From a virus, in the IMG/VR virus record IMGVR_UViG_3300012012_000430, positions 1 to 23,680 of that record: DNA of 23,680 nucleotides, one strand, 5' to 3'. Of this stretch, positions 1 to 13,548 are shown piece after piece. The notes under the pieces are model-generated. The model saw only the letters and a program-made list of their open reading frames with translations. It was not told where the DNA came from and made no database searches. Each line of letters begins with the position of its first letter. Position 1 is the stretch's first letter. The translations under genes were made by a program, and so were the position numbers.

Positions 1-2582
1 GCGTCCACCTGTGCTTTGCTTAGGATTGTGCCCTTGTAAGTCTCGACGCCGTCTATGACCTCCATGCGGAGGCCGGGGCTTCCGTCATCTTTAACGGCTT
101 CGATGGCCTTGAAGATTGCCAGCGACCTTTTCTCGTCCACCTTCTTACGCTCTGCGGCTGTCAGGAACACGGGCTTGCCGCCCATCATTCTGATCTCGCC
201 CTTATCGTCGAGCGCGAACATCCCAGAGTTCTTCCAGCGAGCCAGCATCTCAGGAGTGGTGCTGGCCTTGGCTAAGTCACGCGCATTGACAACCTCTGTA
301 ATTGGAGACTCATCGAAGTCCACACTCATGCGGGTGGTGATCTTGTCCTTCGCACGGAGGTAGGCTGACAGCTTCTCGCGCACGTCGTTGGACATCGAGA
401 GCGGCTTGCCCGTCTCAGGATCCTTGAAGATGCCGCTGGTGACCACCTCGCCGCCGCCATCGAACACAATGCCAAGTGACTCAAGCCCCACCCTGGTGCG
501 GCCCAGCACTCCAAGTGCAGCGCGTCCAAGAGCGGTGGATGGATAGCGGGAAGCCTTGCCAATATCGCCACCCGATAAGCGACCCAGCATCCCGGCGTGT
601 TCAGCGGCCATCTCGTCCGCGATGTAGGCCACACGCTTTGTCATGGGTTGACCCATGTGTGCAGTCATCTCGGCCTCGCTCAAGGGGCTCCTCGAAAGAT
701 ACTGATCCTCCAGCTTCAGGAACTGAGCCTCGTTGTATTTGCCGGGAACGGTCTGCTTGCCCGATGCGTCGTATGACCCGAAGTAGAAAGCCTTGAGTTC
801 TGCGCGTGTCTGATCGAGTGCGGCACCGGCATCGGTCTGCTTACCAGCCTTCTCCTCGGGAGCGAGCTTGTCGAAGCCGTGCGTGGTCTCATGCCAGAGC
901 GTGTAGGCTGGGTCTCTGGCTACGTCGAGGTTGATGAACAGCACCGGCTTTTGGGTAGTTTCCGTGACGCCTTGCATCCCCTTCGCTACCAGCGGATCAA
1001 ACCCGGCATCAATCATGCCCTGAGTGTCGAGGAAGCGCACGTCCATGTCCTCGCCAGTCAGACGGTTCGCGCCCTTCGCAGCAGCCTCGCCACGGGCTAG
1101 TTCAGCCAGTTGGGCCACACTGAGCCTTTCGGCCAGCACGGTGCGCTCTGGGAGGCTCCTGGAGGCCAAGAATGACACGGCCAGGTCTTGATCCTTCGCC
1201 AGCGAGGCGGGGGATTCCGACACACGCACCCACTTGCCGTCAGCGTCGGGCTTGTGGAAGGCGACTCGACCCGCCTGATCAATGCCGATGGACTGGAGGC
1301 GACCCATCGGGCCACCGACGATGCCAGCACCGATGCCGGAGCCGAGGCCGGACACTTCTGGGTCGTTGTTGACTGCGTAGCCTAGCCCGCCACCGATGAC
1401 CAAGCCATTGACCGCAGCGTCGGCAAGCTGTGCGGACTGCGACAGGAGGAAGTTGACTGCGGGGGTGTCGAGCCGTTTGGCGATGGCAGACACCTTCTCG
1501 CCGGCAACGCCTGATTTAGCCGCCACGTCGAGACCTTCGCGTGAGGCAAGGGCTGCGACTTGTGCGGCTTCGCCTGCGGTTACGAGAGCCTTTGGTGCGG
1601 TCTTGAGGATGCTGGGGAGAGCCGTTCGCGCACCAGCACCGATAAACGCACCCGTCAGCGGGTTCTCGTCGTTGCTGGCGGCACCGATGGCAGCACTGCC
1701 TACCGTTGCCCAGTTGGGATTCGCTTTCTCCCACGCCACAAGACTGTCTGCTACAGATTGCAGACCGCGCCCGGTCTTCTCGGCACCCTTGCCAGCCAAC
1801 TCCGTCGCTTTCGCAACTGGTTCGTTCCAGTTGATAGGCGCGGGGCCGTCTCTGATGGGGGGCACGACCTTTGCCGTCGTCTCGGCGACTTCAGCACTCA
1901 CCTTCTCGGCAGCTTGGAGTGCCTTCTCGCCGGCCACCGCAGCCTTCTCGCCGGCCACCGCGACCTTCGTGCCCTTACCGGCAGCCATCAATGCCTTGCC
2001 CGAGCCGCCGCCGACGAGGTTGGTCGGGTCCAGCACCATTGAAAGCGAGTTAGCTACCTCCTGATCGATGCTCTCGTCCATCGTCGCAGCGTGTTCAGGC
2101 GCACCGATGGCGCGGAAGAAGTCGCCCACCCGTGACCGACTGCGCTTCACTTGCTCAACGCTGCGCTCGGCCACTTCGCGGTAGTTCGCGTATTGCCGGT
2201 CAAGGTCTTGCTCCTCGCTCATGCCGGTGACAACGGCGTAGTTCTTACTCGCTACGGTTTTAACGATGTCAGCCCAGCCCTCGCCAGCGGCAAGCATGGC
2301 TTCCGGCAGGTTGCCAGAAGCGCCGGTGAAGCCCTTGGCCCTCACCACCTCGGGTATCTTGGCAAAGCCATTCCACAGTCCCTTAGCTGCCTGCACTGCG
2401 CCCTGTAGGATGTCCGTGTCGGTAGTCTTCTTGCGGTATCGCCACCCAGCCTTCGTGAGAATGTCGTCCTCACCGTAGATGGGCGCACCATCCGGCGTGA
2501 CCTCACCACCGATGACGAACTTGCTCTCGGTATCGCTATCAAAATCACCCTTGATGGGGTCTTTGCTGATGACGAATGGCAT
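1..2582 (-). CDS. Giant internal virion / ejection protein with HETTH metallopeptidase-like motif (3' end beyond window)
   Basis: An open frame starts with ATG at 2582 and runs to the left edge without a stop, giving at least 860 residues; the C-terminus is missing. The N-terminal part is mixed helical. Residues about 206-220 hold an AGEK heptad duplication, and glycine/alanine-rich hydrophobic stretches occur near 295-320 and 390-425, which might insert into membranes. Residues 564-568 read HETTH in the context LWHETTHGFD, the zincin HExxH pattern. A later acidic helix (DEMAAEH, glutamates near 657 and 661) could supply a third zinc ligand. It follows two other internal-virion-like genes downstream of the tail genes, the usual place of podoviral ejected proteins such as T7 gp14-gp16. 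I infer a protein delivered with the DNA, possibly a protease; catalytic activity is not shown. The start lies 15 bp after the preceding stop. Confidence 0.8.
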   Translation of the reverse strand, partial: MPFVISKDPIKGDFDSDTESKFVIGGEVTPDGAPIYGEDDILTKAGWRYRKKTTDTDILQGAVQAAKGLWNGFAKIPEVVRAKGFTGASGNLPEAMLAAGEGWADIVKTVASKNYAVVTGMSEEQDLDRQYANYREVAERSVEQVKRSRSRVGDFFRAIGAPEHAATMDESIDQEVANSLSMVLDPTNLVGGGSGKALMAAGKGTKVAVAGEKAAVAGEKALQAAEKVSAEVAETTAKVVPPIRDGPAPINWNEPVAKATELAGKGAEKTGRGLQSVADSLVAWEKANPNWATVGSAAIGAASNDENPLTGAFIGAGARTALPSILKTAPKALVTAGEAAQVAALASREGLDVAAKSGVAGEKVSAIAKRLDTPAVNFLLSQSAQLADAAVNGLVIGGGLGYAVNNDPEVSGLGSGIGAGIVGGPMGRLQSIGIDQAGRVAFHKPDADGKWVRVSESPASLAKDQDLAVSFLASRSLPERTVLAERLSVAQLAELARGEAAAKGANRLTGEDMDVRFLDTQGMIDAGFDPLVAKGMQGVTETTQKPVLFINLDVARDPAYTLWHETTHGFDKLAPEEKAGKQTDAGAALDQTRAELKAFYFGSYDASGKQTVPGKYNEAQFLKLEDQYLSRSPLSEAEMTAHMGQPMTKRVAYIADEMAAEHAGMLGRLSGGDIGKASRYPSTALGRAALGVLGRTRVGLESLGIVFDGGGEVVTSGIFKDPETGKPLSMSNDVREKLSAYLRAKDKITTRMSVDFDESPITEVVNARDLAKASTTPEMLARWKNSGMFALDDKGEIRMMGGKPVFLTAAERKKVDEKRSLAIFKAIEAVKDDGSPGLRMEVIDGVETYKGTILSKAQVD
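879..893 (-). other. HExxH zinc-binding motif codons (HETTH, residues 564-568)
   Basis: Read on the minus strand, these 15 bases encode His-Glu-Thr-Thr-His, preceded by Leu-Trp and followed by Gly-Phe-Asp. In zincin metallopeptidases the two histidines bind zinc and the glutamate is the catalytic base. The match is seen directly; activity is inferred. Confidence 0.6.
1920..1961 (-). repeat. Tandem 21-bp direct repeat inside the giant virion gene
   Basis: A 20-base unit beginning gccttctcgccgg on the plus strand occurs at 1921-1940 and again at 1942-1961, one base apart. This is a 21-bp period that preserves the reading frame and duplicates seven codons (A-V-A-G-E-K-type unit). A further related AGEK copy is encoded near 1500. 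It looks like a recent in-frame slippage duplication in an alanine-rich helical region. Confidence 0.75.
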
Positions 2583-2597
2583 GGCTTGATTGTTGGA

Positions 2598-4082
2598 TCA
2601 GGGAGTCTTCTTGACCTCGAAATACTGGTTTCCGACCTTTAGCTTCTTAACGTCCGCATTCGGGTTCGCCGCTAGGTATGCGTCGCCAGCCTCCTTGCTG
2701 GGTGCATAGAGGACTCCATTCTCGACTCTGGTGCTGCCGCCGCCGCCACCCGCGCCCTTCAAGGCCCGACCAGCCGAGACCTTCATGCTGTTCGTAGCCT
2801 CAAGACGCATCGCAGCCTTCTGCGCGATTACCTCCGGCTTGTCTCCTACCTGCGGGAAGTAGGTCGCAATTTCTTGTGCCATCTCATCCTTGCCGATTGC
2901 GGCACCCGACTCCTTCCGCAGCTTCGCCCGAACCCAAGCCTGAGAAGCCTGCACAAACTTCTGCGTCTCAGGAGACTGAACGGATCGACTCGATGCGCCC
3001 CCAACAATAGGGATGCTGCCAAGGACGCCTGAACCAGCGCCCGGTTGAGAACCGGCAGGAAGCCCGTTGAGGATGGATTCTGAGGCTTCCATCAATTTGT
3101 AGAAGCCCGCCGCATTGGCCTCGCCCTCGGTGAGCTTTGGATCGACTGGCTCCTTCGGGTCACGTCCGGCTTCCGCCAGCGCTTTGATTGTGGCGAGCTT
3201 CTCGTCCTTAATCATTTTGAAGGCCGCTGCGTAGTCAGGCAAGCCGTCTGGCTGAAGGGGGAACTTACCGTGACGGATGACCTTTTTGAACTCCACAAGC
3301 GTCAAGCGTTCCGAATCATCTTCCGGCAGCGGGATTGCGGTTTTGAAAAGCGACTTGATGGCCTTACCAACAACCTCATTATCCTTGGCCTGAAGGTTGA
3401 TTTCATCGGACTCGCGCTTCTGCTGCTCCTGTTTTGTTTTGAAGGTGGCTTCGCTTAATCTGTTAGTCCCCTCCGCCGACATAATTTCAAACATTTCGGA
3501 ACTCTTGGCTTCGCCCTTCATCTTGCCAGCGAATGCCGACCGACTTAGCTCCACATCCTTCACAAGTGCCTCCGTCCCCTTGCGGTCAAAGATTCTGATG
3601 CCGTCCTTCTCGGCGAACACGGGGTCCACGCCGAACTTATCTTTGGCAAACATCGCGAACTTGCTGTCCTGATAGGAGATGCCAGCGGGAGCTTCCCCGA
3701 ACATGGCCGTGTAGTCGGTGGCCGTGCCTCGTTGATCCATCTCGGCCTCGATCTGCTTGCGGGCGTCGAACCTGTCGTAGAACTGGCGCACCATCGGCAC
3801 CGCCTTCTCGTAGGCGGCGGGGGACAGGTCGCTCATCCGCGTCTTGGCAATGCCCATCAACTGACTCGCGTAGCCGGGGTGGGTCTTGTCAAGGGCCGCG
3901 GCGTCCTTTTTTGCGTAATCCAAGAAGTTCTTCACCTCGGCGTCCACCTCCATGTCCTTGATGATGTCGTTGGCCTTGAGCCTGTTCATCTGGGTGATCA
4001 ACTCGCGATCCTCTCGGGTCCGGTTGTTTTGCTGATAGTTTTCAAGGATGCGTAGCCCAGCTAGGTGGTCTTGTTCTGACAT
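2598..4082 (-). CDS. Internal virion / DNA-ejection structural protein (494 aa)
   Basis: A 494-residue, largely hydrophilic, lysine- and glutamate-rich protein without signal peptide or membrane segment. The N-terminal 230 residues look mostly alpha-helical. The C-terminal third has a glycine/serine linker near 345-365, then a helical block with a GKDEMAQEIATYFPQVGD segment and the downstream IAQKAAMR. This kind of block (small-residue/E-x-x-x-Y-F-P-x-x-G-D, then a lysine/arginine helix) recurs in large podoviral internal virion and injection proteins. Position between a Gly-rich virion protein and the HETTH giant supports an ejected or inner-core role. The start at 4082 lies 21 bp after the previous stop, behind an A/C-rich leader without an SD. 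No enzymatic motif was recognised. Confidence 0.75.
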   Translation of the reverse strand: MSEQDHLAGLRILENYQQNNRTREDRELITQMNRLKANDIIKDMEVDAEVKNFLDYAKKDAAALDKTHPGYASQLMGIAKTRMSDLSPAAYEKAVPMVRQFYDRFDARKQIEAEMDQRGTATDYTAMFGEAPAGISYQDSKFAMFAKDKFGVDPVFAEKDGIRIFDRKGTEALVKDVELSRSAFAGKMKGEAKSSEMFEIMSAEGTNRLSEATFKTKQEQQKRESDEINLQAKDNEVVGKAIKSLFKTAIPLPEDDSERLTLVEFKKVIRHGKFPLQPDGLPDYAAAFKMIKDEKLATIKALAEAGRDPKEPVDPKLTEGEANAAGFYKLMEASESILNGLPAGSQPGAGSGVLGSIPIVGGASSRSVQSPETQKFVQASQAWVRAKLRKESGAAIGKDEMAQEIATYFPQVGDKPEVIAQKAAMRLEATNSMKVSAGRALKGAGGGGGSTRVENGVLYAPSKEAGDAYLAANPNADVKKLKVGNQYFEVKKTP

Positions 4083-4103: not shown

Positions 4104-4988
4104 TTACTCGCCCCTGAAGCCCTTTCCTAATCCAGACTTGAAACCAGACCCTCCCGGCAACATTCCTCCGAACCCGCCCAAAGCCCCACCTGTAACAGCG
4201 CCTCCAAAGGAACTAACCGCACTGTTGAAAACTTTGTTGAAGGGGTCATTGTTTTGCTTGTCTTTGAAGGCTGCAAATTCCTGTTGCCACTTGTTCTGTT
4301 CAAATTGAGCGCCTATCGCGCCAGCGTTAGCATTCAATCCCATGCCCTGCTGGATGCCCATAGGGTTCCACGCAGAGGCTCCCTGCTGCGCTCCGCTGAT
4401 CTGCCCAAACTGTGCCACCGGAGTCGTGCCAGAGAGGAATGCCGAGGCATTGGCGAGCCGCTGCTGACGCATACGGAACCCGGCGTCGCCCACCGACATG
4501 GCTTCTGCTGCTGCGGGTGCGCCTCCAAAGATGTTGCCCCGCGCAGCCTGTGCCCCACGCTCGGCTTGCGTGACCTGATCCTCCTGCTCTTTGGTCAAGT
4601 TGGTGCCGAAGCCCTCTCCGGCGATACTCTCGCCCATTTTCTTCCGCAGCGCGTAGCCAGTGGGGTCAGCCGCCTCAAGCTCCTTGCTTCGTTGTTCAAC
4701 ATAGCCCAGACCATACTTCTGCTGGCTTTCCAACTGAGACTTCGCCAGCGCGTCTGCCGCCTCGGTCATAAAGCCGATCTGACCTCGCATCTGGTCCGCA
4801 TCGCCAGCGCCGGTGAAGTCCGCCTCCTTCGTCTCGCCAGTGCGCGGGTCTTTGTATGAGATCTTGGTTCCCATCTTAGCAGCGGCCTCGATCTGCTTCT
4901 GTAGTGGGAGCAGTTCAACCCCGGTGAGGACACCCTCACGGTTGGCCGCTGCGTAGTTCGGTGGTTCTGGTGCGCTACCTTTGCCCAT
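4104..4988 (-). CDS. Internal virion protein with Gly-rich hydrophobic C-terminus (294 aa)
   Basis: A 294-residue protein beginning MGKGSAPEPP. Residues about 25-150 are helical and charged, 150-215 are Ala/Gln/Gly-rich, and the last 45 residues are glycine-rich with a hydrophobic stretch (GGAVTGGALGGFGGMLPGGS) that might insert in a membrane. This architecture resembles small podoviral internal core proteins such as T7 gp14 by general character, not by a specific motif. It overlaps the end of the preceding gene by 14 bp. Unlike most genes here it has a clear SD: AGGAG, 8 bp before its ATG. That suggests independent or high-level initiation. Function is inferred from position and composition. 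Confidence 0.7.
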   Translation of the reverse strand: MGKGSAPEPPNYAAANREGVLTGVELLPLQKQIEAAAKMGTKISYKDPRTGETKEADFTGAGDADQMRGQIGFMTEAADALAKSQLESQQKYGLGYVEQRSKELEAADPTGYALRKKMGESIAGEGFGTNLTKEQEDQVTQAERGAQAARGNIFGGAPAAAEAMSVGDAGFRMRQQRLANASAFLSGTTPVAQFGQISGAQQGASAWNPMGIQQGMGLNANAGAIGAQFEQNKWQQEFAAFKDKQNNDPFNKVFNSAVSSFGGAVTGGALGGFGGMLPGGSGFKSGLGKGFRGE

Positions 4989-5394
4989 AATTAAATCTCC
5001 TGTGGAGTGTGTTGATGTTGTAGATGCTGCCCCTGCCGCAGTGCTTGTCTCTAGCCCAACAGATCTTCTCGCAAGCCTTCATGCCCGCATCCATCGCCAT
5101 GTGGTAGAGATGGCGCATGATGCCCGCCGTCTTGCCCGTGCAGAGCGCGACGAATGCCAGCTTGCCGCCCGTGTCCCTGTAGTCGTGTTGGGTAACGTCT
5201 TCCTCCACGTCAACGAAGCGATACATCGCAACCCCGACCACCCTGCCGCCCTCGGTGATGCCTTGGAATCGGTCGTGGTCGATGAACCACTGCACCCACG
5301 CCAGCAGAAGTTGACGCGGCCAGCGGCGGCATCCCTTCCAGTGGCGGCGAACGAACGCAGCCACCCGCACCGTGGTTTTAGGATAGTCACTCAC
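4975..5394 (-). CDS. Possible GNAT-fold (acetyltransferase-like) virion-region protein (139 aa)
   Basis: A 139-residue basic protein starting at a GTG that overlaps the previous stop (GTGA). The middle reads GRVVGVAMYRFVD then GKLAFVALCTGKTAGIMRHL, followed by a helix and a C-terminal RGSIYNINTLHRRF. A central beta hairpin, a hydrophobic strand, a helix and a terminal basic strand are typical of the acetyltransferase-like small proteins often found between tail-nozzle and internal virion genes of podoviruses. The classical R/Q-x-x-G-x-G/A acetyl-CoA loop is not clearly present, so enzymatic activity is doubtful and it may be a structural derivative. It is preceded by the best SD in the window. 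Confidence is high for the gene, low for the fold. Confidence 0.7.
   Translation of the reverse strand: MSDYPKTTVRVAAFVRRHWKGCRRWPRQLLLAWVQWFIDHDRFQGITEGGRVVGVAMYRFVDVEEDVTQHDYRDTGGKLAFVALCTGKTAGIMRHLYHMAMDAGMKACEKICWARDKHCGRGSIYNINTLHRRFNYGQR
4997..5001 (-). promoter_or_regulatory. Shine-Dalgarno AGGAG for the 294-aa virion gene
   Basis: AGGAG on the minus strand lies 8 bases before the ATG at 4988. It fixes the start of this gene and stands out because most genes in the window lack such a site. Confidence 0.7.
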
Positions 5395-7289
5395 TCCATC
5401 ACCTCCAGCGTCTCGACGAATGCGGAAGCGACTATGCCGCGAATCTGGAGAACCTTGGACTGCTCGGCCTCGCCTACGGTAAGGCCCGCCGCCTGCGTGA
5501 TTACGACCTGCATCTCTCGCGCCGGGTTCACGTCATCCAGTGCGCTCAGTGTGGTCAAGCCAGAGCCGAGCAGGGAGATGCGCTTGCGGGTGATCGCGCC
5601 TTTGGGCAGGACGAATGGGAGAACCACCGGGAGCAGAACCGTATTGCCGCCGCCCGTGTTGAGGTTCGCCGCGACCAACGTCTCGTCGGAGTTGTCGAGG
5701 ATGACGCTCACATCGACTCGCAAGTTGCTGCCGCGATCAAACTCAAGCTCGATGTAGTCCGGCGTCTTGGGATTGAGCGGCTCGCCAAACGTCAGCGCAC
5801 GGGAGATGAGCTTGATCGTGGGGGAGACGCGAGGCGCGTAGGTGAGCGTGCCAGTCACGGGAGCCAAAGGCGTGCCTGTGAAGTTTGCGTAATTAACGGT
5901 GGCAGTGAACGAGCCGCTTGCGTAGTAGGTGTTGGGAAGTGCGGAGAAAAACGTCTCGTTGGCACCCAGCGTGAATGTGTAATTTTCGCCCACCACAAGG
6001 CCCGAGAAGCTGAATGCTCCAAGCGCACCGTAGGTTCCGACTGCTATTGAAGTCGGAGCAGGAATGTCCTGATGGTCTGTCGGCACAAGGTTCGACTCCT
6101 TGATGTAGTCCCGATACTCGCTGATGGTGGTGGCCGAAACCACCAGCAGCTTGCTCTCGCCGAACGACACGTTGACGAGATCAATCGGCAGCACCCCGGT
6201 CCACATCGACCACCCGCCAGAGGCCGTGTCGAACACTACGATGTGGCTGGGAGCTAGTGCCCCGTCCAAGGGCAGAGCGAGGATGTATTTGCGGTCCCGA
6301 TAGACTGCCGTCGCCGTGTGTGCGTAGTCCCAGTTGATGCGCCCGATCACGTCGTTGATCGGCTCCGAGATCGGCGGCTGGATTGCCGTCATGCCGTCCG
6401 CGAGTGTGCGCTGTAACGTCCGCACGCCGTCGCGGGACAGGAAGAAAGTGTCGTTGCCAATCTGAACCACCGTGCGAGCCGACACGCAACCGATGTCGCG
6501 AGACAGTTGGCGTATGGTGAAGGCGGACGAGAGCGTCGGTGTGGAGGTGGTCGAGAAGGGCGCTGTTCCGATGGCGTAGCAAGACCGTTCCTTGAAGACG
6601 TAGAGCAGGAAGTCCGTGCCGGCAGCAAGTGCGGTAATGTCGTCGTAGTCTTGACCCACATCGAAGCTGACGGCTCCGTTGAACACCGTTGGCGTGCTAG
6701 GAAGGAAGCCTGACGTGTAGATCGAGGAGTTGGTCGCCACCGAAGTCGTTGCATTGGCTACCGAGAACAGGCGGAAGTTCTGCGCCACCATCAGTCGGTG
6801 AGCGTAAAGGCTCTCGGTGGACAGTGAGAACACGGGCAACACGGGCGGGCCGACTGCCATGCTAATCTGCACCAACTTCTCGGTATTGCCACCTGTGCTG
6901 ACGAACATCTTGTCAGCGATCTGGGCGAACGAGGCGCGGTTTGTCGTGTTGCCGTTGTTCAATGTGAAGTTGTCGTAACTGCTCCCGACAGTGGCGTAGG
7001 TGGAGTCGAGGACGTAGATGATGCCGCCTCTAACCACCACCAGATACTCAGCCAACGAATCAAAGAAGGCCGCACCTTGCACCGTGCCGCTACCGGGCAG
7101 TGCCGCAACGTAGTGGAAGCCCCGGCGCGACTTGCACACACCCGTGCTGCCAGTGGAGACGTTCTGGAGTAAGGCACACTCGGACTCGCCCAGCAGGTTC
7201 GCCCGTGCGTTGCTGCGCTGTTGAGCAAACACAGCCTGCCTGTCCAGCACAGGCATATCGTCAATCGCGTCGTTGAAGAGGACGGGCAT
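5391..7289 (-). CDS. Tail nozzle / hub-like protein (632 aa)
   Basis: A 632-residue, beta-rich protein with few charged clusters. Residues about 60-400 contain repeated short strands with aromatic and glycine turns (for example GGIIYVLDS, YVFKERSCYAIG, FLSRDGVRTL, RKYILALPLDG, SGGWSMWTG). This pattern is typical of beta-propeller-like podoviral tail stabilisation or nozzle proteins such as P22 gp10 and T7 gp12-type proteins. Residues about 410-510 look like an added Ig-like or beta-sandwich domain rich in Thr, Phe and Gly. The gene follows the predicted adaptor by 3 bp, the usual adaptor-then-nozzle order. Assignment rests on size, strand pattern and order. The start at 7289 has no SD and is probably translationally coupled. 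Confidence 0.7.
   Translation of the reverse strand: MPVLFNDAIDDMPVLDRQAVFAQQRSNARANLLGESECALLQNVSTGSTGVCKSRRGFHYVAALPGSGTVQGAAFFDSLAEYLVVVRGGIIYVLDSTYATVGSSYDNFTLNNGNTTNRASFAQIADKMFVSTGGNTEKLVQISMAVGPPVLPVFSLSTESLYAHRLMVAQNFRLFSVANATTSVATNSSIYTSGFLPSTPTVFNGAVSFDVGQDYDDITALAAGTDFLLYVFKERSCYAIGTAPFSTTSTPTLSSAFTIRQLSRDIGCVSARTVVQIGNDTFFLSRDGVRTLQRTLADGMTAIQPPISEPINDVIGRINWDYAHTATAVYRDRKYILALPLDGALAPSHIVVFDTASGGWSMWTGVLPIDLVNVSFGESKLLVVSATTISEYRDYIKESNLVPTDHQDIPAPTSIAVGTYGALGAFSFSGLVVGENYTFTLGANETFFSALPNTYYASGSFTATVNYANFTGTPLAPVTGTLTYAPRVSPTIKLISRALTFGEPLNPKTPDYIELEFDRGSNLRVDVSVILDNSDETLVAANLNTGGGNTVLLPVVLPFVLPKGAITRKRISLLGSGLTTLSALDDVNPAREMQVVITQAAGLTVGEAEQSKVLQIRGIVASAFVETLEVME
5398..5406 (-). 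promoter_or_regulatory. Near-perfect Shine-Dalgarno GGAGGTGAT
   Basis: The nine bases GGAGGTGAT match the 16S anti-SD complement without mismatch. The GGAGG core lies 7 bases before the GTG start at 5394, inside the last codons of the upstream tail gene. It supports the GTG start and shows that SD pairing is used at least here. Confidence 0.75.
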
Positions 7290-8951: not shown

Positions 8952-9203
8952 TCATCGGGTTTGCACCTCGCGCTTGCCGAGGGCGTCTAGGATCTCAAGC
9001 ATCTTCGCTTCAGGGACGAGGTAGCCCTCCTTCGGGCTGGGTTGGTGCAGCTTGAGATACACGATCTCTTTGTCCGCCGGGATTACGACCAAGCGCACGC
9101 AGCCGCTCGTCAAGGATAGCGTTGACGCGCTTAATATCGCGGTCAGCAATAACCTCGCGAGCCTCGTCTTCGTGGCGCTTGAGTCTTGTTGCGGGCAGTT
9201 CAT
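8952..9203 (-). CDS. Putative o-spanin (Rz1-like outer-membrane lipoprotein), 83 aa
   Basis: An 83-residue product whose first 194 bp are nested out of frame in the i-spanin gene. Its N-terminus has positive charges (TKTRLAR), a hydrophobic core (LLLTAILSASTL) and a lipobox-like LTSGC with Cys35, as in signal peptidase II substrates. The lipobox is imperfect (Thr at -3). The mature part is about 49 residues and modestly polar. In lambda-like phages Rz1 lipoproteins are encoded overlapping Rz and join the inner-membrane subunit to fuse the membranes at lysis. The overlap plus paired topologies is the main evidence. A shorter start nearer the signal sequence is possible. Confidence 0.7.
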   Translation of the reverse strand: MNCPQQDSSATKTRLARLLLTAILSASTLSLTSGCVRLVVIPADKEIVYLKLHQPSPKEGYLVPEAKMLEILDALGKREVQTR

Positions 9204-9279
9204 CGAGGGCGGCTTTGCGTTTTACCAGCCAGATCACGAACGGCACCAACGCCGCCAAGATGGCTAGCACTGCGCTCAC
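9010..9279 (-). CDS. Putative i-spanin (Rz-like), 89 aa
   Basis: An 89-residue protein starting at a GTG that overlaps the stop of the preceding holin-like gene (GTGA). Residues about 2-20 form one hydrophobic segment (VLAILAALVPFVIWLV), followed by KRK and a charged heptad-like helix up to about residue 65, then a polar Pro/Gln-rich tail. This N-in, C-out type II topology with a periplasmic coiled coil is the i-spanin pattern. A lipoprotein gene starts inside it in another frame, as in Rz/Rz1. The protein is shorter than lambda Rz (about 150 aa). Together with the neighbours it suggests a lysis cassette. Confidence 0.7.
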   Translation of the reverse strand: MSAVLAILAALVPFVIWLVKRKAALDELPATRLKRHEDEAREVIADRDIKRVNAILDERLRALGRNPGGQRDRVSQAAPTQPEGGLPRP

Positions 9280-9479
9280 AGCGAGCCGACATCCTCGCTG
9301 CTCTTGTCATTGTCCCGAGCGGCGATGAGGCCGATGCCGGCTCCGACGGCGGCGATGACAGCCGTCCAGTCGGGGTTGGTGTTGGGGTTCGCATCGAACA
9401 GCAGGTTCAACGCACCAGCAACCGAGGCAATAATAGCCGAGAGGCCGGCGGCAGTTGTCTTCCAAGAGGATGTCTTCAT
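9276..9479 (-). CDS. Holin-like small membrane protein (67 aa)
   Basis: A 67-residue protein beginning MKTSSWKTTAAG, with two hydrophobic segments (about 9-28 and 38-54) separated by a polar turn (DANPNTNPDW) and a charged tail (ARDNDKSSEDVGSL). Two-helix small proteins of this type, often starting with a W-K-T-T-x-x-G motif, are common beside lysis genes in phages and are usually annotated as hypothetical or holin-like. Its position just upstream of the spanin pair favours a holin. The longer in-frame ORF upstream is not used because the start here matches the family-like N-terminus and follows the previous stop by 4 bp. Confidence 0.65.
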   Translation of the reverse strand: MKTSSWKTTAAGLSAIIASVAGALNLLFDANPNTNPDWTAVIAAVGAGIGLIAARDNDKSSEDVGSL

Positions 9480-9483
9480 TATG

Positions 9484-9726
9484 TTAGTGTTTTCCGAACA
9501 GTTGACCAATCGCAGCGCCGACGCCACCCGCGCCGATGCCGGCACCGATTGCGATGCCGAGAATCTTCTTCTTGTCGCCCTCAAGCTCGGCCACACGGGC
9601 CAGCACCGCTCCGTGCGCTGCGTCGTTGGACATTCGATACAGCCGAGTCTCATCGACGTGCGCGTTGAGCGTGGTCTCGATTCGACTCAGCACCGCGTCC
9701 GTTGAGTTGGGATTAAAGTCAGACAT
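9484..9726 (-). CDS. Small protein with coiled coil and C-terminal Gly-rich membrane segment (80 aa), XhlA-like topology
   Basis: An 80-residue protein. Residues about 8-50 form a charged helix (LSRIETTLNAHVDETRLYR, then LARVAELEGDKKK), followed by a hydrophobic glycine-rich segment (ILGIAIGAGIGAGGVGAAIG) and a short basic end. A helical region plus one C-terminal membrane segment is the layout of XhlA-type phage lysis accessory proteins, but no specific motif was matched. Its start overlaps the previous stop (TAATG). It belongs to the run of small genes before the spanins, so it may be part of the lysis group or a virion membrane protein. Confidence 0.65.
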   Translation of the reverse strand: MSDFNPNSTDAVLSRIETTLNAHVDETRLYRMSNDAAHGAVLARVAELEGDKKKILGIAIGAGIGAGGVGAAIGQLFGKH

Positions 9727-11916: not shown

Positions 11917-12291
11917 TTACGCTTCCAAATCTATTGTGAAATAGTCTTCGGTCAGCATTGACCCACCAAATTCAAGGTCGAGGTCTGCATACTGCACCCT
12001 GCGATTCTCGATGTGAGCGATGACGCGAGCCGTTGCGTCCGTGTCCAAAGCCTTAAACGGGCCGTAAAGCACGGTCCCCGCCGGGTAGGTGATTCCGGTA
12101 AAAGTGCCGAGCAGCGGGTCTGCGCTTTCGAGGGTTGTCAGTTGGCCGGCGACTAGGAACCTGATCGATGCCATCGCCCCGGTGGCTGACGAGTTTGGTG
12201 GGACCATCCGCATCCCGAGCCGACCCATGTCGAGTGAAGTGTTCTCGTAGTGGACCTGCGCCTCTGCCGCCATTTGTTCCAGAACAGTCAT
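11917..12291 (-). CDS. Small head-region protein, paralogue of the 87-aa protein (124 aa)
   Basis: ATG at 12291 overlaps the stop of the upstream gene (ATGA), which sets the start rather than a longer in-frame ORF. Residues about 22-98 closely match the 87-aa protein encoded at 13285-13548: both have MGR-x-GM-x-M-x-PP, a GTFTGI-Y-AGTVLYGPF block and DATARVI followed by a tail ending RR. This copy has an extra helical N-terminus (TVLEQMAAEAQVHYENTSLD) and an added acidic C-terminus ending FTIDLEA. The beta-rich core without enzymatic motifs suggests a capsid decoration or fibre-anchor protein; this is inference from position. Confidence 0.7.
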   Translation of the reverse strand: MTVLEQMAAEAQVHYENTSLDMGRLGMRMVPPNSSATGAMASIRFLVAGQLTTLESADPLLGTFTGITYPAGTVLYGPFKALDTDATARVIAHIENRRVQYADLDLEFGGSMLTEDYFTIDLEA

Positions 12292-12530
12292 CGCGGTGCT
12301 GGATGGGCCCACGCTGGCTCTAGGAGCCTCACCTTGAGGTCGGAGAACGACATCGGGCCTTCCGATCCATTGATCTCCCAAACGAACGCTGGAGCCCCGC
12401 CGCGCCAACTGATGATGGCCTTCGTCCTGTCCACGCTGCGGCGGCAGGTAGCCGCACTGGTCTGCGTGACCAGCGAAAAGTCAACCTCCCCAAGCTCGGA
12501 CACCGGCACGATCATGCAGTTGAGGTTCAT
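12288..12530 (-). CDS. Hypothetical protein between LamG and paralogue genes (80 aa)
   Basis: An 80-residue protein. Its ATG overlaps the LamG stop (TGATG) and its stop overlaps the next ATG (ATGA), so it is likely translated by coupling. The segment PVSELGEVDFSLVTQTSAATCRRS followed by DRTKAIISWRGG looks like a compact alpha/beta fold of a kind often seen in phage head-region hypothetical proteins: E-L-x-x-V-D-F, T-S-x-x-T-x-R-x-S, then a strand with W-x-G. No function can be assigned. The overlaps on both sides make a spurious ORF unlikely. Confidence 0.6.
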   Translation of the reverse strand: MNLNCMIVPVSELGEVDFSLVTQTSAATCRRSVDRTKAIISWRGGAPAFVWEINGSEGPMSFSDLKVRLLEPAWAHPAPR

Positions 12531-13285
12531 CAGTATCTTGCTAGGTGGGCGTTGTAATTAGACAGCACCTCGGCGGCGGTGAGTCCCTTGCCTTTGTAGA
12601 TGCGGATCTGGGAGAGTTTCCCGTTCCAGCCGTAAAGCGAGTCAGTCGCAGGGGCTGGGTAGCTTGTGTAAAGGAGTTGGCTACCGATTGCCATTGGGTA
12701 ATACGATAAAAGGCTCTCTGTGAACTCCACCGGCGCTCCAGGCACGCCGTTGACATAGAACGTGACAAAGCCGGACTGCCTAGACGCGACGATGTGCGAC
12801 CACACGTTAATCGGCGTCTCGCCGTGGTTGCTGTAAGCCTCAGAGGTCTGTCCAAGGACTTGTCCGTATGCGTTTGCTCCGTTGACTCCGTTGAAGTAGT
12901 AGCCGCCGCCGACTCCTCCGTTGTGATTGCTAAGAAGAACCTGATAGTAGTCAGTCGCGTGGCCCTCGGTGCGTGCCCACGCCTCAAGCGTGAAGTCGTC
13001 AGCGCCGAGGGCGAAGTCCACGTCGTGTGCGATGGTCCCGTAGGTGTCCATGCCGTTGAAAACTATGCTGCCTCCGTTGCCACTACTATAAGTTGGCCCA
13101 TTGACAAGGTTGCACACGAAACCGTTGGTCGAAATGTCCGTCCACACCGTGCCAGTGCCGGGGTAGCTGGCGACGTTGCCGGCGTCCAGCCACAGCACCA
13201 AGTTGTCCATCACGATGCTGCCGGGTGCGATGGCTCCTGAAGTCGGCTGGGCGACGAACCCAAGTCTGTGTCCGAGTCCTAGCAT
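12530..13285 (-). CDS. LamG / concanavalin A-like lectin-domain protein (251 aa)
   Basis: A 251-residue protein with a short N-terminal segment, then NLVLWLDAGNVASYPGTGTVWTD, SIVFNGMDTYGTIAHD, FTLEAWART, WSHIVASRQSGFVTFYVNG and a final SQIRIYKGKGLTAAEVLSNY. These are the successive strands of a LamG-like jelly roll (Laminin_G_3 type), which usually binds carbohydrates. In phages such domains occur in capsid decoration or fibre proteins and may attach virions to glycans or mucus. Start overlaps the previous stop (TAATG). It is bracketed by two paralogous small proteins, suggesting a decoration module acquired or rearranged as a unit. Carbohydrate binding is inferred from the family. Confidence 0.8.
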   Translation of the reverse strand: MLGLGHRLGFVAQPTSGAIAPGSIVMDNLVLWLDAGNVASYPGTGTVWTDISTNGFVCNLVNGPTYSSGNGGSIVFNGMDTYGTIAHDVDFALGADDFTLEAWARTEGHATDYYQVLLSNHNGGVGGGYYFNGVNGANAYGQVLGQTSEAYSNHGETPINVWSHIVASRQSGFVTFYVNGVPGAPVEFTESLLSYYPMAIGSQLLYTSYPAPATDSLYGWNGKLSQIRIYKGKGLTAAEVLSNYNAHLARY

Positions 13286-13548
13286 TAGCGGCGGGTGTCG
13301 AAGTATCCGATGACGCGGGCCGTGGCGTCGGTGGTGACGGCGGTGAACGGGCCGTAAAGCACCGTGCCGGCAGCGTAGGAGATGCCGGTGAAAGTGCCGA
13401 TCAGGGGCTGGGAACTGGTCAGCACGTCAAGCTCGCCAGCCGCGATGAAGTGGAGCGCGGCGAACTTGGCCGTGACCCCGGTTGAGGGCGGGATCATCTG
13501 CATCCCGTAGCGGCCCATGCCCAGCGAAAGTTGCTCTTCGTGTTTCAT
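13285..13548 (-). CDS. Small head-region protein, shorter paralogue (87 aa)
   Basis: An 87-residue protein (MKHEEQLSLGMGRYGMQMIPP...) containing GTFTGISYAAGTVLYGPF and DATARVIGYFDTRR. These match the core of the 124-aa protein encoded downstream at 11917-12291. At DNA level the two share gggccgtaaagcac plus many near-identical codons, pointing to a gene duplication. It starts one base after the stop of the 85-aa gene and its own stop overlaps the LamG start. A structural or decoration role is inferred from position after the capsid gene; no family is recognised. Confidence 0.7.
   Translation of the reverse strand: MKHEEQLSLGMGRYGMQMIPPSTGVTAKFAALHFIAAGELDVLTSSQPLIGTFTGISYAAGTVLYGPFTAVTTDATARVIGYFDTRR

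Follow-up and report, generated by a model that had tools for sequence, protein, structure and literature searches.

The giant virion-operon protein encoded in the DNA analysed here very probably carries a zincin-like metallopeptidase domain of the kind found in phage polyvalent proteins, located at residues about 510-672 (positions 567..1055, minus strand) of the window, whose 23,680 bases make up the entire viral record. The domain possesses a conserved metal site and a zincin-like order of structural elements, is related to polyvalent proteins, and is retained among relatives across changes of the neighbouring cassette.

Results

The open reading frame of this putative polyvalent protein (positions 3..2582, minus strand) comprises 860 amino acids and is open at its 3' end. 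As the contig ends inside the frame, the C-terminus is absent from the data and 860 residues represent a floor; homologues in the same slot measure 1,877-2,354 aa and suggest a full length of about 1,900-2,350 aa. The sequence-only reading had described a protein of more than 860 residues ending the virion operon: the 860-residue frame does stand there, but it is truncated, and its gene closes the virion block only within the limits of this contig. Capsid, head-closure-like and conserved operon genes lie upstream on the same strand in an order that holds in relatives, so that the giant gene shows the late-virion-gene location typical of polyvalent proteins. Its immediate upstream neighbour encodes a 494-aa protein (2598..4082, minus strand), with a 499-aa protein at the same place in locus L010, followed by a conserved 294-aa virion-operon protein (4104..4988, minus strand) and a 632-aa stabilisation or head-closure-like protein (5391..7289, minus strand).

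Searches with the window protein returned no Pfam family above cut-off, no PHROG and no sequence match to a solved structure, PDB sequence searches with the domain gave chance matches only, and the giant protein as a direct query retrieved no relative from IMG/VR or annotated phages. Relatives were therefore sought by synteny through the neighbouring genes, with alignments A1 and A5 of the 632-aa head-closure-like and the 294-aa conserved protein, respectively, serving as anchors. In the closest group, defined as loci matching the 294-aa anchor with E below 1e-60, a giant gene occupies the same slot, and every contig long enough (11/11) encodes an HExxH motif at residues 599-675. These contigs (L009, L013, L089, L095, L096, L098, L099, L100, L103, L104 and L105/L010) correspond to about eight distinct lineages, as three pairs among them (L095/L096, L098/L099 and L100/L104) are closely related. 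Outside the closest group most giants are devoid of HExxH.

Homology to the window protein rests on more than the motif, because two of the giants match it over long segments. The L099 giant aligns with residues 461-833 (E 1e-17) and with the N-terminal residues 16-193 (positions 2004..2537, minus strand; 31.5% identity, E 7e-15), and the L010 giant is colinear over residues 256-835. A segment following the zincin, residues about 690-835 (78..515, minus strand), is kept in the giants of L099 and L105. Loci L119, L122, L125 and L127 were fetched later with zincin-bearing queries and used for alignment only, outside the count of 11; as the queries carried the zincin, these loci are uninformative on how frequent the domain is. 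Three giants with an HExxH (L005, L069 and L111) were excluded from the family alignment owing to profile scores that were weak or mostly due to the motif, and their zincins may be separate from the window family. L009 was left out because its sequence ends before the third ligand. Together, these same-slot giants with weak or motif-only profile similarity (L005:17519-22267, L069:8234-13561, L111:1881-8597 and L009:14483-16546) possibly belong to other zincin clades. Annotated phages searched with the L010 and L013 domains gave no match, and the domain alignment A6 was too diverse to be used in scanning a collection.

The HETTH motif itself, reported by the sequence-only reading at residues 564-568, was found exactly there (positions 879..893, minus strand, read from 893 to 879) and would supply two zinc ligands and a general base. 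It is the sole HExxH in a protein that contains six histidines in all; composition alone predicts 0.003 occurrences, and 0.25% of shuffled versions contain one. The metal-site alignment A9, comprising 12 sequences 19-29% identical to the window, revealed N551, H564, E565, H568, Y628, E638 and E657 (window numbering) as invariant positions, and residue 661 is E or D in all 12. E657 (612..614, minus strand) is the candidate third zinc ligand; the acidic helix downstream of the motif, which had been proposed as a source of this ligand, is present as ADEMAAEHAG and contains it. Together with E661 (600..602, minus strand) it forms an ExxxE/D pattern comparable to the ExxxD that follows the HExxH of thermolysin, and by sequence the family thus displays the gluzincin pattern. 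Both a conserved HExxH and a conserved third ligand were hence recovered in homologues. In the window 93 residues separate the first histidine from the glutamate; the relatives span 82-142, in agreement with a variable insert reported for the metallopeptidases of polyvalent proteins (PMC5512222).

The earlier caution that such a motif may arise by chance has some ground, as HExxH alone is a weak motif and the window protein matches no database family. Nevertheless, the site falls in the same alignment column throughout the group, and the third ligand is kept with it, which argues against a fortuitous match within a structural protein and leaves that explanation with a negligible probability.

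For the fold, an AlphaFold2 model of the trimmed domain reached a mean pLDDT of 69 and a pTM of 0.65, compared with a pLDDT of 57 for a longer fragment. In the trimmed model, three strands (13-17, 36-40 and 45-50) are followed by the HExxH helix at 57-72 and the glutamate helix at 146-168 (model numbering); the invariant N551 (930..932, minus strand) ends the strand ahead of the HExxH helix. With modest confidence, the order of elements in the model fits the published polyvalent zincin core: the invariant H564, E565 and H568 are placed on a helix, the invariant E657 on a later, C-terminal one, and the strands precede both in the order expected of a three-stranded core sheet. Foldseek searches of a library of predicted viral protein structures with this model returned an ART-PolyVal-like protein as best match (E 2.1e-6, probability 1.00) and also a large polyvalent-protein-associated-domain (LPD) protein (probability 1.00). 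In the PDB, Foldseek found nothing significant for the trimmed model, and the longer one, of lower quality, retrieved unrelated proteins only. A second look with VIA-align ranked anthrax lethal factor first among solved structures (Z about 4; in the catalytic-domain rows 137 residues aligned onto 595-775 with an rmsd of 4.8), while Z values of 2-3 were obtained for N4 gp50, MATCAP, lugdulysin and a Bacteroides metallopeptidase; these values are low and serve as support only, as a Z around 4 could reflect a common arrangement. A zincin fold is thus supported at modest confidence by the order of elements and the matches to polyvalent models, but the matches to known zincins are weaker and the model is of limited quality.

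Among the domains of polyvalent proteins, zincin metallopeptidases occur most often; they have been proposed to process these proteins and fall into 12 published clades (Iyer et al. 2017, PMC5512222). The window domain shares with them the HExxH helix, the later glutamate helix, the variable insert between the helices and, as predicted with modest confidence, a three-stranded core (PMC5512222), and its relatives fuse the zincin with PBECR and ART domains in a gene beside virion genes; it differs in being matched by no existing Pfam or PHROG model. Weak peptidase-family matches were obtained with relatives, namely to the metallo-protease phrog_87 (5e-4) and to M78 and DUF6782 (0.02-0.04).

Two individual systems also resemble the window family. 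The C-terminal metallopeptidase of P1 DdrB reads VNLND...ALWHELGHHLE where the window has INLDV...TLWHETTHGFD, and its glutamate lies 83 residues past the first histidine compared with 93. DdrB differs in its length of 995 aa and in being described with a ParB-like domain; no Pfam match to a ParB domain of this type occurs in the 860 residues of the window protein, whose C-terminal rest lies beyond the contig. The virion RNA polymerase gp50 of phage N4 is a giant ejected protein, as the window protein probably is, with an HExxH domain (C1); its gene follows the capsid genes as the last of the virion block. It is linked to the window family by hhalign and weak VIA-align matches, although neither the N-terminal part encoded in the window nor the full-length relatives scanned gave a match to an RNA polymerase domain. 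Profile comparison of A9 by hhalign scored 33.5 against DdrB and 31.5 against N4 vRNAP C1, where the best of 150 controls per target, in which HExxH was kept and the remainder shuffled, reached 26.5 and 27.1, respectively. Since both scores exceed all controls, the similarity goes beyond the motif, over aligned stretches that are short (26 and 47 columns). In both proteins a glutamate chosen by eye occurs 82-83 residues past the first histidine in comparable context. The likeness to the catalytic domain of anthrax lethal factor (M34), to whose fold the 2017 paper linked the N4 domain (PMC5512222), amounts to a distant fold resemblance at about 10% identity and implies no toxin function.

A further alternative is a metal-dependent HExxH enzyme other than a peptidase, for which alphaKG-HExxH oxygenases provide the example: HExxH occurs in radical-SAM-linked alphaKG-HExxH enzymes as well, according to a preprint on N4 vRNAP (PMC12633501). 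As the fold searches point to polyvalent proteins and zincins, and the ExxxE/D helix providing the third ligand is gluzincin-like, we regard an activity of this type as very improbable.

Comparison of the longer relatives revealed a fixed frame around an exchanged cassette. Across residues 1-1200, which include the zincin, the giants of L104, L125 and L127 are 44-82% identical to that of L105 in 100-residue blocks; at residues about 1200-1600 the identity of L104 and L127 to L105 falls to background or gaps, and it recovers in the C-terminal part (blocks and BLAST). Full-length relatives (about 1,900-2,350 aa) thus keep the zincin while the internal cassette differs. The exchanged segment corresponds to a PBECR5 nuclease in L105, L122 and L125 (E 4e-21 to 6e-22) and to ART-PolyVal in L104 (E 1.3e-10), so that multiple unrelated effector domains are seen among full-length relatives; the window copy ends before that region. 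A further observation concerns the L127 giant (L127:6321-12650), which has a second HExxH at residue 1315, near the end of the short segment replacing the PBECR5 cassette. This motif, possibly part of a second metallopeptidase, is devoid of the usual strand pattern ahead of it and was not counted.

More distant relatives (L109, L110, L117 and L080) have an LPD38 giant without HExxH in the slot, and the L111 giant combines LPD38 with HExxH. Because the giants in this slot, several with LPD38, can be devoid of HExxH, the zincin is dispensable in distant relatives. The occurrence of PBECR5, ART-PolyVal and LPD38 in one slot led to the conclusion that this is a polyvalent-protein slot in which the zincin marks one group, and it supports the polyvalent-protein idea put forward from the sequence alone.

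Several other features of the window were recorded. Two overlapping small frames (8952-9203 and 9010-9279, minus strand) resemble a nested spanin pair, one with a lipobox-like LTSGC and the other with an N-terminal hydrophobic helix and a weak Rz-like spanin match (E 0.078); such a pair would suit a Gram-negative host. Overlapping holin-like frames were seen at 9276-9653 and 9484-9726 (minus strand), the 80-aa one matching the phrog_689 holin (E 4.6e-4). Two proteins (11917-12408 and 13285-13548, minus strand) flanking a virion-structural-like protein (12530-13285) share PLxGTFTGIxYxAGTVLYGPF...TDATARVI and, on this similarity, are probably paralogues by duplication. The genome collection yielded a single short contig, L120 (RFJS01000089.1), which at 4738-4878 codes for a protein related to the 294-aa one of the operon; the contig is filed under a Verrucomicrobia MAG, a possible host hint that is too weak to name a host.

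Discussion

The giant protein is probably packaged in the phage head and delivered together with the DNA. Its domain would coordinate a single zinc ion by way of H564, H568 and E657 and cleave peptide bonds, with E565 in the role of general base. The most likely target is the giant protein itself, which the zincin may cut at head maturation or after entry, and cleavage would release the effector cassette from the N- and C-terminal regions common to these giants. We give an even chance to such self-cleavage being the main job of the zincin.

The alternative raised at the outset sees the zincin as an effector that, once injected, cleaves a host protein, e.g. a defence component. Delivery with the DNA is usual for polyvalent proteins (PMC5512222), and the retention of the catalytic glutamate and all ligands makes catalysis likely, to judge from the alignment. 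Yet the zincin stays constant while the neighbouring cassette is exchanged, which, as an argument, is easier to reconcile with general processing than with one specific host target; a host-directed function is therefore fairly unlikely in our assessment, and self-processing appears likelier than an attack on host defences. The sequence-only interpretation thus largely stands, with the likely job of the domain revised.

A second alternative holds that the domain is mainly structural, acting in packaging or ejection while catalytically idle, as may be the case for N4 vRNAP. There, the metallopeptidase-domain region is required for encapsidation and the protein, with such a domain, is packaged unprocessed (PMC5512222), which also means that self-cleavage is not universal. 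In the family described here, by contrast, the general-base glutamate and the third ligand are invariant at about 20% identity, and structure alone need not keep them; we consider a purely structural role unlikely.

Extending the self-processing reading to this phage group, the zincin could possibly function, as a tentative proposal, as a general release device for whichever cassette occupies the fixed N- and C-terminal frame. If true, cassettes such as a nuclease, an ADP-ribosyltransferase or others would be exchangeable without altering the delivery machinery. Overall, the findings add to the polyvalent-protein theme a divergent group of metallopeptidase domains that escaped the Pfam and PHROG models applied. 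Its relatives constitute a natural experiment, in which a protease-bearing frame remains fixed and the effector cassette is exchangeable, and the published proposal that injected phage proteins process themselves becomes testable on their cassette junctions and cleavage products.
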